Source: Pseudomonadota bacterium
Lineage (GTDB): Bacteria > Pseudomonadota > Alphaproteobacteria > Acetobacterales > Acetobacteraceae
Assembly (NCBI GenBank): GCA_021818505.1
Contig: JAKADX010000008.1
Coordinates: 1-64,000, forward strand
DNA length: 64,000 nucleotides
Reading direction: 5' to 3'
The position numbers were made by a program, and so were the translations under genes. Positions 4,546-12,590 of the stretch are shown here, in pieces; position 1 is the first letter of the stretch; every line of letters begins with the position of its first letter. The notes beneath the pieces are model-generated. The model ran no database searches. It worked only from the letters and a program-made list of their open reading frames with translations, and was not told the origin of the DNA.

Positions 4546-5034
4546 TCAGTCGGCGGCGAGGGTGAGGTTCCAGATGCAGGCGGGATAGCGGCGCCAGAGC
4601 TGGCCGTAGAAGGTCCGACCCTCGAACCGGCCGCTGATCCACCGGTCGCCCGCCTGCATGACCACCTCCCCGGACGGGTCGATCGTGCCACGGAAGCCGA
4701 AGAAGCGTGCCTGGTCGCCGGAGACCTTGAACCCGCTGATCCGGTAGTCAACACAAGTGCTGTGTTGCATCGGGTTGTAGCTGACGACCGCGGTTCCGAC
4801 GTAGCTGCCGGACAGGTCGGCGGCCGGCGGCCGCGCCGGCAACGGGGTGCCGAGCGGCTCGGCCGGCGTCGCCGGCGCCGGCTGCGCGCCGGGCAGCGCT
4901 TGCGGTCCCGCCGGGAAGGTCAGGCTGAATGGCGGGGCGGTGCCGAGCCTGGTGCCGCTCGGGGTCTGGTACTCCGCGCAGCCCGCCGCGCAGGCCACCA
5001 GCGCCGCAGGCCACAGGTGCCGATGCCATGTCAT
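4546..5034 (-). CDS. Putative lipoprotein of unknown function
   Basis: 162 residues. The N-terminus is a lipoprotein signal: a short charged start, then a hydrophobic stretch ending in the lipobox L12-V13-A14-C15. A Pro/Ala-rich linker spans about residues 40-70. A C-terminal domain of about 90 residues follows, with YVGTAVVSYNPMQHSTC, SGRFEGRTFYGQLWRR and a final Cys, suggesting a small beta-structured domain with a possible disulfide. No family was recognised with confidence. It lies upstream of the HdeD-like gene on the same strand, 32 bases away, and could be cotranscribed with it. Confidence 0.6.
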   Translation of the reverse strand: MTWHRHLWPAALVACAAGCAEYQTPSGTRLGTAPPFSLTFPAGPQALPGAQPAPATPAEPLGTPLPARPPAADLSGSYVGTAVVSYNPMQHSTCVDYRISGFKVSGDQARFFGFRGTIDPSGEVVMQAGDRWISGRFEGRTFYGQLWRRYPACIWNLTLAAD

Positions 5035-8010: not shown

Positions 8011-8027
8011 GTTCAGCCGGGGTTCAG
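8011..8027 (+). promoter_or_regulatory. Direct-repeat operator GTTCAG-N5-GTTCAG (site A)
   Basis: Two GTTCAG half-sites at 8011-8016 and 8022-8027, an 11-base period. The second half-site ends 61 bases before the ATG of the ferritin-like gene, and a TGTATCC -10-like element starts about 9 bases after it. An 11-base direct repeat overlapping the -35 region is the usual site architecture of OmpR/PhoB-family regulators such as PhoP. The identical element occurs at 8664-8680. Confidence 0.65.
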
Positions 8028-8087
8028 GTTGCGCGTGTATCCGACCTGCAACCGCCGCTTCCAGCGGTTCAGGCACAGGAGAATCAC

Positions 8088-8567
8088 ATGAACGCAGTCT
8101 CTCTGCGAACGGTACTCGCGGCACTTGGCATCGGCGCAATCGTCGCGTCGGGTGCCGCTTACGCCGCCAACACCTTGCAGCCGTCCACCAGCAAGGATCT
8201 GACGGACGCCATGAAGACCGAGGCGTTCGTCACCCTGAAATACATGGCCTACGCCGATGCGGCGCGCGCGCGCGGCAACACCCAGCTTGCCGCCCTGTTC
8301 GACAGAATCGCCGACAGCGAGCGCCGCAATCACTTCGCTGCCCATGCGCAGATGGCGGGGCTGGTCGGCGCCGATGGCGACAACCTGATGGACGCCATCA
8401 AGGGCGAAGCTTACGAGAGTGAAAAAATGTATCCGAAGATGGCACAGCGCGCCACCATCGTGGGCGACAAGGAGGCGGCCAAACATTTCCGTCAGGTTGC
8501 CACCGACGAGGCGCAGCACCGTGACGTGTACCAGGCCGAAGTGAACAGGCTGGTCGCGAAGAAATAA
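8088..8567 (+). CDS. Exported ferritin-like (rubrerythrin-type) protein
   Basis: 159 residues. A Sec-type signal peptide with AYA-A cleavage near residues 26/27 directs it to the periplasm. The rest is a four-helix ferritin-like domain with candidate di-iron ligands E45, E78/H82, E107 or E110, and E141/H144. The second ExxH motif is normal (EAQH), but the first reads E-RRN-H, one residue longer than usual. There is no rubredoxin-like zinc/iron domain. Likely roles are iron binding or peroxide detoxification outside the cytoplasm. A CAGGAG ribosome site precedes ATG 8088. It shares an operator with the next operon. Confidence 0.8.
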   Translation: MNAVSLRTVLAALGIGAIVASGAAYAANTLQPSTSKDLTDAMKTEAFVTLKYMAYADAARARGNTQLAALFDRIADSERRNHFAAHAQMAGLVGADGDNLMDAIKGEAYESEKMYPKMAQRATIVGDKEAAKHFRQVATDEAQHRDVYQAEVNRLVAKK

Positions 8568-8592
8568 AAGCCCGCGCACTGCCAGCTTGACG

Positions 8593-8620
8593 ACGCCGTC
8601 CCCACACCGGGGGCGGCGTT
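8593..8620 (+). terminator. Probable rho-independent terminator after the ferritin-like gene
   Basis: ACGCCGTCCCC (8593-8603) pairs with GGGGGCGGCGT (8609-8619) with one G-T pair and a loop of about five bases, followed by a short TTT. It sits 25 bases after the ferritin-like stop. It separates that gene from the PepSY operon promoter. The weak T-run lowers confidence. Confidence 0.5.
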
Positions 8621-8663
8621 TGCATGTGCGCCGCAACGCGCCGCGGACGGAAAATTTGCCGCG

Positions 8664-8680
8664 GTTCAGGTGGCGTTCAG
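8664..8680 (+). promoter_or_regulatory. Direct-repeat operator GTTCAG-N5-GTTCAG (site B)
   Basis: GTTCAG at 8664-8669 and 8675-8680, the same 11-base period as site A. Its end is 61 bases before the ATG of the PepSY gene, exactly the same distance as site A has to its gene. A CGATACC -10-like element follows at the matching offset. The response regulator encoded at 9927-10589 is the obvious candidate to bind it. Confidence 0.65.
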
Positions 8681-8740
8681 CGCACGGCGATACCACGGCG
8701 ACGGCCGCAAACCGCGGCCGACCGGAGAAGGAAAACACAC

Positions 8741-9073
8741 ATGACATCGAAATCTCTGCGCTGGGTGCTCGCCGCCGGCGTCATCACCCTCGCCGCGACC
8801 GGCGGCGCGCTGGCCGTCTCGGGCAGTTTCGCGTCGGAAGGCGAAAACGGAGAGCGCGGCGCCTGCACGCTGAAGCCCGCCGCCGATGGCAGCACGCCCG
8901 CCGCCCTGAGCGACGCCGAGATCCGTGGCAGGCTGACCGCGGCCGGCTACACCCAGGTGCGCAGCCTCGGCCACGAGGACGGCTGCGTCGAGGCCAAGGG
9001 CATCGACAAGGACGGCAAGCGGTTCGAGGTGTATCTGCACCCGGCGACCGGCGAGATCGTGAAGCAGCGATAG
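8741..9073 (+). CDS. Exported PepSY-domain protein
   Basis: 110 residues with an N-terminal signal or anchor helix (VLAAGVITLAATGGALAVSG), then a PepSY-type domain: LSDAEIRGRLTAAGYTQVRS, followed by a strand pair ending in FEVYLHPATGEIVKQR. Two cysteines (in ACTLKP and DGCVEA) could form a disulfide. PepSY domains act in the periplasm as modulators, often of proteases or redox and metal-handling membrane proteins. First gene of a five-gene operon. A GGAGAAGG ribosome site precedes ATG 8741. The direct-repeat operator lies 61 bases upstream. Confidence 0.82.
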   Translation: MTSKSLRWVLAAGVITLAATGGALAVSGSFASEGENGERGACTLKPAADGSTPAALSDAEIRGRLTAAGYTQVRSLGHEDGCVEAKGIDKDGKRFEVYLHPATGEIVKQR

Positions 9074-9082
9074 GAGGCAGGC

Positions 9083-9625
9083 ATGAACGCCCCTACACTG
9101 CTGGACGCGCCCGCTGGGACCGTCCGGGTCTGGGACCCCGTTGTGCGGATCGGCCACTGGACGCTCGCGCTCGGCTTCGTGGTGGCGTTCCTGGTCGAGG
9201 AAGGTGACCTGGTCCACCAGGTCGCCGGCTATGTCGCCGCCGGCGCGGTCGCGGTGCGGGTGGTCTGGGGCTTCGTCGGGCCCGGGCACGCCCGGTTCGC
9301 CAACTTCGTCCCAGGCCCGCGCCGGCTGCTCGGCCATCTCTCAGACCTCCTGCGCGGGCGGGACCGTCGCCATATCGGTCACAACCCGGCGGCCGGCGCG
9401 ATGGCGGTGACGCTGCTCGGGCTGGTGGCGAGCCTGGGGGTGACGGGTTGGCTGATGACCACGGACCGCTTTTACGGCACGAAATGGCTGGAGGGTCTGC
9501 ACGAGGCCATCGCCTACGCCGCGCTCGGCCTCGTCTGCCTGCACGTCGCCGCCGCCATCTACCAGAGCGTCCGGCACGCCGAGAACCTGCCCTGGGCAAT
9601 GGTCACGGGACGCAAGCGCAAGTGA
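9083..9625 (+). CDS. Cytochrome b561 / Ni-Fe hydrogenase b-type cytochrome
   Basis: 180-residue, four-helix di-heme b-type cytochrome. Candidate heme ligands are His25 (RIGHW), His45 (DLVHQVAGY), His140 (EGLHEAIAY) and His154 (VCLHVAAA). It would move electrons across or within the inner membrane. It begins 9 bases after the PepSY gene with an AGGAGG ribosome site and ends in GTGA, overlapping the next start. Enclosed by two PepSY genes and a two-component system, so a role in periplasmic redox or metal stress is likely. The electron partner is not evident. Confidence 0.88.
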   Translation: MNAPTLLDAPAGTVRVWDPVVRIGHWTLALGFVVAFLVEEGDLVHQVAGYVAAGAVAVRVVWGFVGPGHARFANFVPGPRRLLGHLSDLLRGRDRRHIGHNPAAGAMAVTLLGLVASLGVTGWLMTTDRFYGTKWLEGLHEAIAYAALGLVCLHVAAAIYQSVRHAENLPWAMVTGRKRK

Positions 9626-9927
9626 CGCGGCGCGGCATCCTGGCCGCGTTGTTCCTCGTCGCCGGGACGGTGCCGGCGCCGGCGGACAGTGACCAGGATG
9701 CCGCCCGCGACGCCTACAAATCGGGTCGCGCCGTCTCGCTCGAACGCATCCTTCAGCGCGCGCGTCAGGACCACCCCGGCGAGGTGCTCGGCGTGGAGAT
9801 CGAGCGGCACGGCGACGAGCTTCATTATGAACTCCGTATCCTCGCCCCTGACGGACAGATCGGCGAATGGCGGTATGACGCGCGCAGCGGTGCCCCGCTC
9901 GACGCCGCCCGCGAAGGACACGACTGA
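9622..9927 (+). CDS. Second small exported PepSY-domain protein
   Basis: 101 residues starting at GTG 9622, whose GTGA overlaps the cytochrome stop by four bases. A signal peptide (GILAALFLVAGTVPAPADS) is followed by a PepSY fold: ISLERILQRAR-like helix (SLERILQRARQDHPGEVLGV), then paired strands with YELRILAPDG and WRYDARSGAPLD. Its stop overlaps the ATG of the response regulator by one base (TGATG). PepSY proteins cotranscribed with histidine kinases are plausible periplasmic modulators of the sensor; that role is inferred. Confidence 0.8.
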   Translation: MTRRGILAALFLVAGTVPAPADSDQDAARDAYKSGRAVSLERILQRARQDHPGEVLGVEIERHGDELHYELRILAPDGQIGEWRYDARSGAPLDAAREGHD

Positions 9928-10589
9928 TGCGGCTGCTGGTCGTGGAGGACGAACCCAGGCTCGCCGCGCAGCTGCGCGAGGCGCTGGCCGCGTCCGGATT
10001 TTCCGTCGATGCTGCGCATGACGGCGAGGAGGCGAGGCTGCTCGGCGCGACGGAACCCTATGATGCCGTGGTGCTCGACCTCGGACTGCCGCGCCAGGAC
10101 GGGCTGGCCGTGCTACGCCACTGGCGCGGGCGCGGCGTGCGGGTGCCGGTGCTGATCCTCACCGCGCGCTCGGACTGGCACAGCAAGGTCGAGGGATTGA
10201 ACGCCGGCGCGGACGACTACCTGGGCAAACCCTTCGTCATGGAGGAGCTGGTGGCGCGTGTGCGCGCGCTGATCCGCCGCTCCCAGGGCTTCGCCGCACC
10301 CCAGATTTCATGCGGCCCGATCACGCTCGACCCGACGGCCGCGACCGTCAGCGTCGACGGCCGGCCGGTGGCGCTGACGGCGCAGGAATTCCGCACGCTC
10401 AGCTACTTGATGCATCGCCAGGGCCGGATCGTGTCGCAGCGGGAGTTGGGCGAACACATCTACGACCTCGATGACGAGCACGAGTCCAACACGATCGAGG
10501 TCTTCATCGGCCGCATCCGCCGCAAGCTGGGCGTGGACGCGATCCGCACGGTGCGCGGCCTGGGCTATCGGCTGCAGGCGCCGCAATGA
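9927..10589 (+). CDS. OmpR/PhoB-family response regulator (PhoP/QseB-like)
   Basis: 220 residues. The N-terminal receiver domain has the acidic pair at E7/D8, phospho-acceptor Asp51 (VVLDLGLPRQDG) and the conserved Lys of DYLGKPF. The C-terminal winged helix (residues about 125-218) contains LTAQEFRTLSYLM, the SNTIEVFIGRIRRKL recognition helix and a VRGLGYRL wing. Partner kinase is the next gene (ATGA overlap). This class binds 11-base direct repeats, matching the GTTCAG-N5-GTTCAG sites upstream of the operon and of the ferritin-like gene. Confidence 0.95.
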   Translation: MRLLVVEDEPRLAAQLREALAASGFSVDAAHDGEEARLLGATEPYDAVVLDLGLPRQDGLAVLRHWRGRGVRVPVLILTARSDWHSKVEGLNAGADDYLGKPFVMEELVARVRALIRRSQGFAAPQISCGPITLDPTAATVSVDGRPVALTAQEFRTLSYLMHRQGRIVSQRELGEHIYDLDDEHESNTIEVFIGRIRRKLGVDAIRTVRGLGYRLQAPQ

Positions 10590-11941
10590 TCCGCCTCGCC
10601 GGAGTGTCACTGCGCACGCGGCTGCTCGCCGGGGCTTTGACGTGGATCGCGGTCACGCTGATCGTCACCGGCCTCGTGCTGACCGCGCTGTTCCGGGCGC
10701 ACGCCGAACGCCGCTTCGACGTCGAACTGGCGACGCATCTCGATCAGCTCCTGGCGTCGCTGCGGGCCGCAAGCGACGGCACCTTGTCGCTGGCCCACCC
10801 GATGACGGACCCGCGCTTCCAGCGTCCCTATTCCGCGCTCTACTGGCAGGTTGACGGGCCGACCGGCCCGCTCCTGCGCTCCCGCTCGCTGTGGGACCAA
10901 GCGCTGCCGCTGCCCCGGGACACGCCCGGCGATGCCGAATTGCACCGCCATCTGCTCACCGGACCGGAGGGACAGCGGCTGGTCGCTGTTGAGCGGCGTG
11001 TGAGGCTGCCGGGAATGCACGGCGTCGTCCGCGCCGCGGTGGCCGGCGACCTCGACGTGGTCAACCGGGCGACGCGCGCGTTCGCCCGCACCACGGCGCT
11101 GGCGCTGGGCACGCTTGCGCTCGGGCTGCTGGTCGCGGTGGCGATCCAGGCGTTCGGCACGCTGCGTCCGCTCGGGCGGCTGCAGGCGGAACTGGCCGCG
11201 GTTCGGGCCGGGCGCGCCGCGCGACTCGCCGGGCGGTTCCCGGCGGAGTTGCAGCCGCTGGTGGACGGCCTGAACGGGCTGCTGGCGCACGACGCGGCAG
11301 TGCTCGCGCAGGCGCGGACGGAGGCAGGAAACCTCGCGCACACGCTCAAGACACCCCTCGCCGTCATCGTCAATGCCACGGGTGCGCTGCCTGGCGGGGA
11401 GGCCACCGCGATGGTCGCCGACCAGGCACGATTGATGGCACGACGCATCGACTACGCGCTGACGCGCGCGCGCGCCGCTGCGTCGGGCCGGGTGCTCGGT
11501 GCCACGACGGCGGTCGCACCACTGATTGAGCGAATGGCACAGGCGATGCGGACATTGCACGCCGATCGCGGGATCGTGGTGGACGCGCACGCGGAGGGCG
11601 ATTGCGTCGCGCAGATCGAGGAACAGGACTGCGAGGAAATCCTGGGCAACCTGCTCGACAACGCCTGCAAATGGGGGCGCACGCGCGTCGCCATTGCGGC
11701 ACGCGCGGCGGAAGCACGTGTCGTCGTCACGATAGATGACGACGGGCCCGGCCTGCCCGAGGTGGAGCGCGAGCGCGTGTTCCTGCGCGGCGAGAAGCTG
11801 GACGAGCGCGCCGAGGGTGCGGGCCTTGGCCTGTCGATCGTCCGCGACCTCACTGCGACCTATGACGGCAGCATCGGCTTGGATTCCTCGCCGCTCGGCG
11901 GATTGCGTGCGGTGCTGTCGCTGCCACGCGCCGCCGCCTGA
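10586..11941 (+). CDS. PhoQ-like sensor histidine kinase
   Basis: 451 residues. Transmembrane helix at about 15-36, a periplasmic sensor region of about 130 residues (40-165), a second helix at 168-190, a HAMP-like linker, then the phospho-acceptor His252 in NLAHTLKTPLAV. The HxLKTPL form is that of PhoQ rather than the HELRTPL of most kinases. The ATPase domain has an N box (EILGNLLDNACKW) and G boxes (IDDDGPGLP, GAGLGLSIV). It starts in an ATGA overlap with the regulator. The signal is unknown; the PepSY and cytochrome genes upstream suggest periplasmic metal or redox state. Confidence 0.95.
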   Translation: MIRLAGVSLRTRLLAGALTWIAVTLIVTGLVLTALFRAHAERRFDVELATHLDQLLASLRAASDGTLSLAHPMTDPRFQRPYSALYWQVDGPTGPLLRSRSLWDQALPLPRDTPGDAELHRHLLTGPEGQRLVAVERRVRLPGMHGVVRAAVAGDLDVVNRATRAFARTTALALGTLALGLLVAVAIQAFGTLRPLGRLQAELAAVRAGRAARLAGRFPAELQPLVDGLNGLLAHDAAVLAQARTEAGNLAHTLKTPLAVIVNATGALPGGEATAMVADQARLMARRIDYALTRARAAASGRVLGATTAVAPLIERMAQAMRTLHADRGIVVDAHAEGDCVAQIEEQDCEEILGNLLDNACKWGRTRVAIAARAAEARVVVTIDDDGPGLPEVERERVFLRGEKLDERAEGAGLGLSIVRDLTATYDGSIGLDSSPLGGLRAVLSLPRAAA

Positions 11942-12086: not shown

Positions 12087-12197
12087 TGCCCGGGACGACT
12101 CAATTGTATATTGATTTTGCTGGCGGCAGGCGACCCGGAGATCGGCGTCCTGCCGCGCGCGGGCGCGTCAGCACTGAATCACTGCGGGGCAGACATC

Positions 12198-12590
12198 ATG
12201 AAATGGCTTCTGGCATCAGCCGGGATTTGCGTCGTTCTGGCCGCCTCATCGGCCGCGCGCAGCCAGACGACAGAGCAGACCTTCATGGTACCGACGGCGG
12301 GCTCGCTCGCACAACTGTGCAGCGACACGTCGCCGAACGACCCGATGATGACCGCCGCGCAGAACTTCTGCCACGGCTTCATGGTCGGGTCGTATCAGGT
12401 GCTGTTGCAGGTCAATGCAGCGCGGAAGCGGCCGGCATTCTGCGTGCCCAGCCCCGCCCCCAGCCGCAGTCAGGCGATCGCCGAGTACGTGCAGTGGGTG
12501 AACGCCAGCCCGTCGAACGCGGCGATGCCGCCGACCGACAGCGTGTTCGCATTCCTGATGCAGCGTTTCCCGTGCAAGGCCGGAAAGTGA
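12198..12590 (+). CDS. Exported Rap1a/Tai-like domain protein
   Basis: 130 residues. A signal peptide (to about SSAARS, residue 22) precedes a domain with Cys41, Cys58, Cys82 and a terminal Cys126. The pattern LC...FCHGFMVGSYQ, then FCVPSPAPSRSQAIAEYV and a closing F.MQRFPC, matches the Rap1a immunity family, named for the Serratia T6SS immunity protein Rap1a. No T6SS gene or effector lies nearby, so an immunity role is doubtful; stand-alone homologues are common. ATG 12198 is preferred over the longer frame because the signal peptide begins there. Confidence 0.7.
   Translation: MKWLLASAGICVVLAASSAARSQTTEQTFMVPTAGSLAQLCSDTSPNDPMMTAAQNFCHGFMVGSYQVLLQVNAARKRPAFCVPSPAPSRSQAIAEYVQWVNASPSNAAMPPTDSVFAFLMQRFPCKAGK

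Follow-up and report, generated by a model that had tools for sequence, protein, structure and literature searches.

A direct-repeat box conserved with a PepSY two-component regulator and found upstream of a probably exported rubrerythrin-like gene

Introduction

In the window analysed here (the whole stretch of DNA, 64,000 nucleotides long), the same direct-repeat box stands in front of two neighboring units, one encoding a rubrerythrin-like protein and the other an operon that ends with an OmpR-family response regulator and its sensor kinase. This raises the question of whether the two boxes are operators of that regulator and, if so, which targets and what kind of signal would be connected through them. 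PepSY two-component modules and operators composed of 11-base direct repeats are both known already. To our knowledge, there are few PepSY two-component modules whose operators and targets have been described. A first-pass annotation of this DNA had proposed that the two boxes define a small regulon, composed of an exported ferritin-like protein and the sensory operon itself. Here, we have analyzed the genes of the locus, the occurrence of the box in its own genome and its conservation at orthologous loci from named genomes, from the family and class of the window and from plasmids.

Genes of the locus

All genes of the locus described here are encoded on the forward strand. The first of them, named FER in this study (8088-8567), encodes a protein of 159 amino acids that matches the Pfam family Rubrerythrin (5.4e-15) and, over residues 33-150 only, the rubrerythrins of the PDB (2.7e-11). 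Residues E45, E78, H82, E107, E110, E141 and H144 are invariant in seven homologs, and FER possesses the conserved Glu/His ligands of the erythrin di-iron domain at positions taken from the PDB alignment. We take E45, E78, E107, E110, E141 and H144 to have the di-iron ligand roles. With its di-iron erythrin domain and equivalent ligands, FER is similar to rubrerythrin and sulerythrin (PDB 1nnq, 3mps and 1j30); unlike these proteins, it is probably exported, its first ExxH motif has the form ExxxH (E78, H82) and, as it contains no cysteine, it lacks a rubredoxin domain. It is not a full-length rubrerythrin, which would have such a domain at the C-terminus. Export of FER is considered probable, as judged by eye from an N-terminus that reads as a signal peptide.

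The second unit starts with PEP2 (8741-9073), a small PepSY_2 protein (Pfam 7.5e-15) that is probably exported as well (by eye), followed by CYTB (9083-9625), a cytochrome b561-type membrane protein (Pfam Ni_hydr_CYTB, 5.2e-24), and PEP1 (9622-9927), a small PepSY protein (Pfam PepSY, 5.6e-08) whose gene is directly upstream of the regulator gene. The regulator, RR (9927-10589), contains the Pfam domains Response_reg and Trans_reg_C and is the putative binder of the two boxes, whereas the last gene of the unit, HK (10586-11941), encodes a sensor histidine kinase with a HATPase_c domain and a PhoQ-like catalytic half (NCBIfam PhoQ). The earlier description of this pair as an OmpR-family regulator and a PhoQ-like kinase was correct with regard to the OmpR family, but needs to be narrowed in two respects. 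First, RR scored higher with the NCBIfam models of PmrA (220.6 bits), QseB (211.4 bits) and TctD (210.3 bits) than with that of PhoP (189.6 bits), all of which were under the cut-off (336 bits for the PhoP equivalog), and its best solved relatives were the DNA-binding response regulator D (1kgs) and PmrA/BasR. Second, the likeness of HK to PhoQ is limited to residues 184-442, with a score of 157.2 bits as compared with an equivalog cut-off of 497 bits. Downstream of the kinase gene, a Rap1a-domain protein (Pfam 8.3e-14) is encoded at 12195-12590. No tRNA was found in the window.

The locus is a PepSY two-component module with a cytochrome b561 and a probably exported erythrin, whose relatives are DbfQRS and BqsRS. 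Such modules have recently been reported to be widespread (PMC12714742; this and the other reports on known systems are cited from excerpts). As is characteristic of DbfQRS-like modules, a small PepSY protein is encoded beside the regulator and the kinase. In DbfQRS of Vibrio cholerae, a small exported PepSY protein is likewise encoded directly upstream of the regulator and the kinase; unlike DbfQRS, the unit described here includes genes for a cytochrome b561 and for a probably exported rubrerythrin-like protein. According to that report, DbfQ binds the sensor domain of the kinase and turns it into a phosphatase, DbfRS is activated by outer-membrane damage, and variants of DbfQ-like modules with two PepSY genes or with a PepSY gene on the opposite strand have been described (PMC12714742). 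Other PepSY clusters, of the membrane type, have been tied to iron reduction and VIT1, and not to the present gene set (PMC8238504).

Two identical boxes and their occurrence in the genome

Box A (GTTCAG-CCGGG-GTTCAG, 8011-8027) and box B (GTTCAG-GTGGC-GTTCAG, 8664-8680), both on the forward strand, match the GTTCAG-N5-GTTCAG pattern of the first-pass annotation without any mismatch and are separated by 60 bases from the ATG of FER and from that of PEP2, the gene that opens the operon of the regulator, respectively. The equal distance of 61 bases reported for the two sites corresponds to the step from 8027 to 8088 and from 8680 to 8741. Both boxes have the form of a PhoP/PmrA-type operator, that is, a hexamer direct repeat with a 5-base separation. 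They are similar to the PhoP box of Salmonella, which has the same separation and is placed in direct orientation near the -10 element (PMC3335776), whereas the PhoP half-site is (T/G)GTTTA, PhoP has many targets, and RR scores higher with the PmrA and QseB models.

A scan of the whole genome (4,442,636 bp), as had been suggested in the first-pass annotation, identified boxes A and B as the only exact copies of GTTCAG-N5-GTTCAG on either strand; the reversed control pattern had no exact match in the same genome. The number of exact copies expected by chance per genome is 0.20 on the basis of base composition and 0.66 on the basis of the hexamer frequency of the window, and a single copy would mean little. 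One alternative is that the match between the two sites arose by chance, or is a remnant of a recent promoter duplication. Within the window, eight matches with at most two mismatches were observed, compared with 2.42 expected, and this number was reached in none of 100 shuffles. Outside the box, the promoters A and B could not be aligned; as judged by eye, identical positions are scattered apart from a short stretch of identity at the start codon, which makes a recent duplication unlikely. Considering the rarity of the box in the genome, the unlike flanks and a conservation elsewhere (63 of 91 and 76 of 91 loci, see below) far above that of the controls, we rejected both chance and duplication as extremely improbable.

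The small regulon claimed in the first-pass annotation stands as far as it was tested. No further exact site was found, and 10 of the 11 sites with one mismatch in the genome are located inside mechanical ORFs of at least 180 amino acids (such ORFs do not prove genes). The remaining one-mismatch site, L128, had no convincing gene behind it. A wider regulon in this genome was thus rejected at the level of one mismatch. When up to two mismatches were allowed, 231 forward and 105 reversed sites were present in the genome, and weak sites could hide in this excess. A third copy had also been reported, GCGGTTCAGG at 8064-8073 on the forward strand in the FER leader. It is present, but as a lone half-site that probably occurs by chance and whose proposed role is unsupported; GTTCAG was counted 35 times on the two strands of the 64-kb window, and no GTTCAG half-site was seen in the FER leader of Methylocapsa.

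Conservation of the box with the regulator

To define orthologs, 126 loci representing several classes were queried, with the class level covered by the best 30 of 97 regulator matches. Eight loci had no regulator match; from the other 118, the window and 26 loci with at most 190 bits were dropped, which left 91 ortholog loci. A box with at most two mismatches was identified on the forward strand within 700 bp upstream in 63 of these 91 loci. The reversed pattern was matched in 1 of 91, and dinucleotide shuffles gave an expectation of 1.4. The exact box was present in the same stretches of 17 loci (0 reversed). The repeats are thus strongly conserved at orthologous loci, a point on which the first-pass annotation had made its reading depend. 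With a shorter core and a longer upstream stretch (TTCA-N7-TTCA within 1300 bp), the number of loci increased to 76 of 91; three control half-sites were found in none of the same 91 loci, and, with 7 excepted, each spacing in the range of 3 to 15 was seen in at most 3 of 91 loci. Among more distant regulators (100-190 bits), a box with at most two mismatches was present in 2 of 25, as compared with 63 of 91 orthologs; the box thus follows the clade of RR.

The 15 loci without the TTCA-N7-TTCA core include the close orthologs L005, L006, L030 and L174, as well as a Methylocapsa locus (L155) in which the box is located before FER, beyond the scanned stretch. Repeats of TTCAT were found in three of five Salinisphaera loci and in two of three Aeromonas loci. 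Within the family of the window, the regulator was detected in 12 of 60 genomes at E <1e-65 (15 at 1e-50). In ten of these 12, an exact box is found no more than ~450 bp from the regulator gene (in the case of the window, before the operon); G024, one of these ten, has the box facing away from the regulator. Of the remaining 48 genomes, 9 contain an exact box anywhere. In addition, two regulator genes of the same family (L107 and L108, in G037 and G042) have one internal stop, which reflects either a broken gene or a sequencing error.

As the box is conserved together with the regulator, RR is the likely protein to bind boxes A and B. We consider it highly probable that the two boxes are operators of RR (9927-10589) and that RR would thereby activate both its own operon and FER. 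It could be argued that they are bound by another OmpR-type regulator, such as a PmrA- or BqsR-like protein encoded on the chromosome, and that the local RR uses other sites, given that sites of this kind form a broad family and that the BqsR site, TTAAG-N6-TTAAG, differs by one base per half-site (PMC4682146). However, the box goes along with RR, in presence as well as in position, both in the family and in the 91 loci from several classes, is rare beside the more distant regulators and has only two exact copies in the genome. Binding by another regulator therefore appears very unlikely, and RR is retained as the probable binder.

BqsRS of Pseudomonas aeruginosa is nevertheless a useful comparison. 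Here as there, two pentamers are arranged at an 11-base period and a PepSY gene is adjacent, the latter encoding PA2658 in the case of BqsRS (PMC12714742); unlike in BqsRS, the half-site is TTCAG or TTCAT. BqsR has been described as an activator that has one of its pentamers overlapping the -35 element and Fe(II) as the signal, and for which 432 candidate sites with at most two mutations were reported, whereas only two exact sites are found here (PMC4682146). Another similar system is UzcR of Caulobacter, a metal-responsive envelope two-component system (PMC8963506, PMC12864828). A site of the UzcR type was rejected, as CATTAC-N6-TTAA is unlike the box (PMC8963506).

Promoter geometry

According to the first-pass annotation, each box is followed by a -10-like element at the same offset, TGTATCC for box A and CGATACC for box B. 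We found that these heptamers start 9 and 8 bases past the box, respectively, and that only their inner TA, at +11 and +12 in both promoters, has an equal position. The corresponding -10-like hexamers, TATCCG (8038-8043) and TACCAC (8691-8696), both on the forward strand, are weak matches.

A clearer picture was obtained from 59 distinct promoters of relatives (identical ones dropped) that were aligned on the box. An A at +13 was present in 85% of them and a T at +17 in 69%; the two occurred together (AnnnT) in 39 of 59 promoters (runner-up offset, 8), and the full TAnnnT was observed at +12 in 12 of 59 and at any other offset in at most 3. Relatives thus have, as a rule, a -10 hexamer that spans +12 to +17, which makes a separate -35 element unnecessary. 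The direct orientation of the box and a -10 element at a fixed short distance downstream are also what is seen in PhoP/PmrA-type promoters. Compared with this family position, the TA of the two sites in the window is one base nearer to the box and the hexamers are poor. In Salmonella, PhoP activates from a box in direct orientation located 12 nt upstream of the -10 element, and when the box was moved by 1 nt from the 23-nt position, expression fell to ~25% (PMC3335776). By analogy, the shifted and poor -10 elements suggest that the promoters of the window may be weak.

A predicted symmetric bidirectional operator in relatives

In many relatives, the region upstream of the regulator operon is common to a divergent gene. 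In 25 of 58 non-redundant loci, a second box on the opposite strand starts at an upstream offset of exactly 22 bases relative to the first one; an offset of 33, again a multiple of 11, came next with 4 of 58. Similarly, the arrangement TGAR-N7-TGAR-N7-TTCA-N7-TTCA, which has a gap of 7, was present in 22 of 71 non-redundant loci, whereas other gaps within the range of 0 to 60 were restricted to 27, 36, 47 and 58, once each. In both data sets, identical promoters and promoters at least 90% identical had been dropped. On sequence grounds, such head-to-head boxes constitute a predicted symmetric bidirectional operator. In the window, no second box with up to two mismatches lies beside box A or box B, and the two units are arranged collinearly, each with a single box.

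The head-to-head loci also bear on the direction of regulation. The box covers the place of the -35 element, where a bound protein could exclude the polymerase, and RR might accordingly act as a repressor, rather than an activator, of these promoters. However, AnnnT was found at +13 in 15 of the 22 head-to-head loci when read toward the regulator and in 16 when read in the opposite direction, in addition to 39 of the 59 promoters described above. Such a single fixed offset is similar to that of PhoP-activated promoters with a box in direct orientation, and a repressor would not need it. Repression by RR thus seems distinctly unlikely, and activation remains the preferred reading.

The divergent ORFs (mechanical translations, judged by eye) varied and included PepSY proteins, cytochromes, a protease-like protein and exported proteins of unknown kind; a tblastn match to PEP2 or CYTB on the divergent strand was obtained in 7 of 58 loci only. 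At L010, L057, L167 and L172, the divergent genes were recognized by eye as encoding a c-type cytochrome, a cytochrome b561, a PepSY membrane protein and a DegP-like protease. It looks as though the operator had stayed constant while its targets were exchanged.

FER in other genomes and a GTCAG variant of the box

Homologs of FER were found in 5 of 385 genomes of the class at E 1e-12, four of which were weak (32-34% identity), and in 4 of 28 genomes of relatives at E 1e-5, all weak except that of the window's own genome. Given this scarcity of FER in the class, the window and a small number of plasmids are the basis for placing it in the regulon. Twelve plasmid records contained FER; the annotated plasmid loci were chosen by hand, 7 from these 12 records and 4 from 124 records of the cytochrome. 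The closest plasmid FER is that of Methylocapsa polymorpha pRX1, in which the order FER-PepSY-cytochrome b-PepSY-regulator-kinase is the same as in the window and GTTCAGGCCAGATTCAG is located 59 bases before the FER start.

A different organization was observed on the plasmids of Xanthobacter Py2, Methylovirgula HY1, Sphingomonas naphthae and Sphingomonas FARSPH. On these plasmids, FER is divergent from the PepSY-cytochrome-regulator-kinase operon, and a GTCAG-N6-GTCAG box is present at both promoters. In Sphingomonas NIC1, both boxes are beside the operon, and a FER-like gene without a box is ~4.7 kb away. The regulators of the GTCAG group are 38-42% identical to RR. They differ from the TTCAG group in a segment that we take to be the recognition-helix region of the regulator, which reads PNALEAAVSR or PNALEAVVSR in the GTCAG group and typically SN[T/V][I/L]EV in the TTCAG group. 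The GTCAG variant and the change in this region make the specificity code of these regulators testable. An extra GTCAG-N6-GTCAG box was observed upstream of a VIT-family gene in two Sphingomonas plasmids (L158, position 1799, minus strand; L160, position 1799, minus strand). This location points to the VIT-family gene, presumably encoding an iron/manganese transporter, as a candidate third target on these two plasmids.

Proposed mechanism and significance

We suggest the following model for the function of this module. The signal to which HK would respond by phosphorylating RR is probably located in the envelope, and the PepSY proteins probably tune this step; by analogy with DbfQ, either PEP1 or PEP2 might tune HK. 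A dimer of RR would then bind head to tail on two TTCAG half-sites, one helical turn apart, cover the place of the -35 element and recruit the polymerase to the -10 element ~11 bases downstream. In this way, RR would raise the expression of its own operon (PepSY, cytochrome b561, PepSY, regulator and kinase) and of the separate FER gene. Judging from the targets, which comprise an erythrin and a cytochrome b561 as well as VIT transporters elsewhere, periplasmic iron or peroxide may be the signal. Activation, control of the kinase by PepSY proteins and a role of the module in the handling of periplasmic iron or peroxide are what we infer from these comparisons.

A more specific and speculative version, which we consider rather unlikely to be correct in its entirety, is that the module represents a mobile and self-contained periplasmic redox circuit. 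A two-component system tuned by PepSY proteins would sense periplasmic iron or peroxide and, in relatives through a phased bidirectional operator with four half-sites in an 11-base register, would induce a cytochrome b561 that passes electrons from the quinone pool to the exported, rubredoxin-less erythrin; the latter would serve as a periplasmic peroxidase or ferroxidase.

Among the open-licence literature matches listed, we recognized none that deals with a TTCAG/TTCAT operator with a fixed -10 element, with its bidirectional form of four half-sites or with a tie to an exported erythrin. The TTCA[G/T]-N6-TTCA[G/T] pattern with its fixed -10 element makes the regulons of this clade readable from genome sequences. 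A concrete hypothesis for the signal is provided by the link to an exported erythrin and a cytochrome b561.

Origin of the module

The RR of the window is 68% identical to the regulator of a genome from another family (G289), compared with 61% identity to that of a genome from the same genus (G004), and the nearest relatives of FER in the plasmid collection are plasmid-borne. Taken together, these observations hint that the module might have been acquired horizontally.

Similar arrangements were also noticed on an actinobacterial plasmid from Mycolicibacterium (L161). Here, GTTCAGCATTCCTTCAG (2259-2275) is located before a FER-like gene, which lies close to a VIT gene and to the gene of a distant regulator (38%), and a near-identical 17-mer, GTTAAGCATTCCTTCAG (4736-4752), is located before an aquaporin gene.
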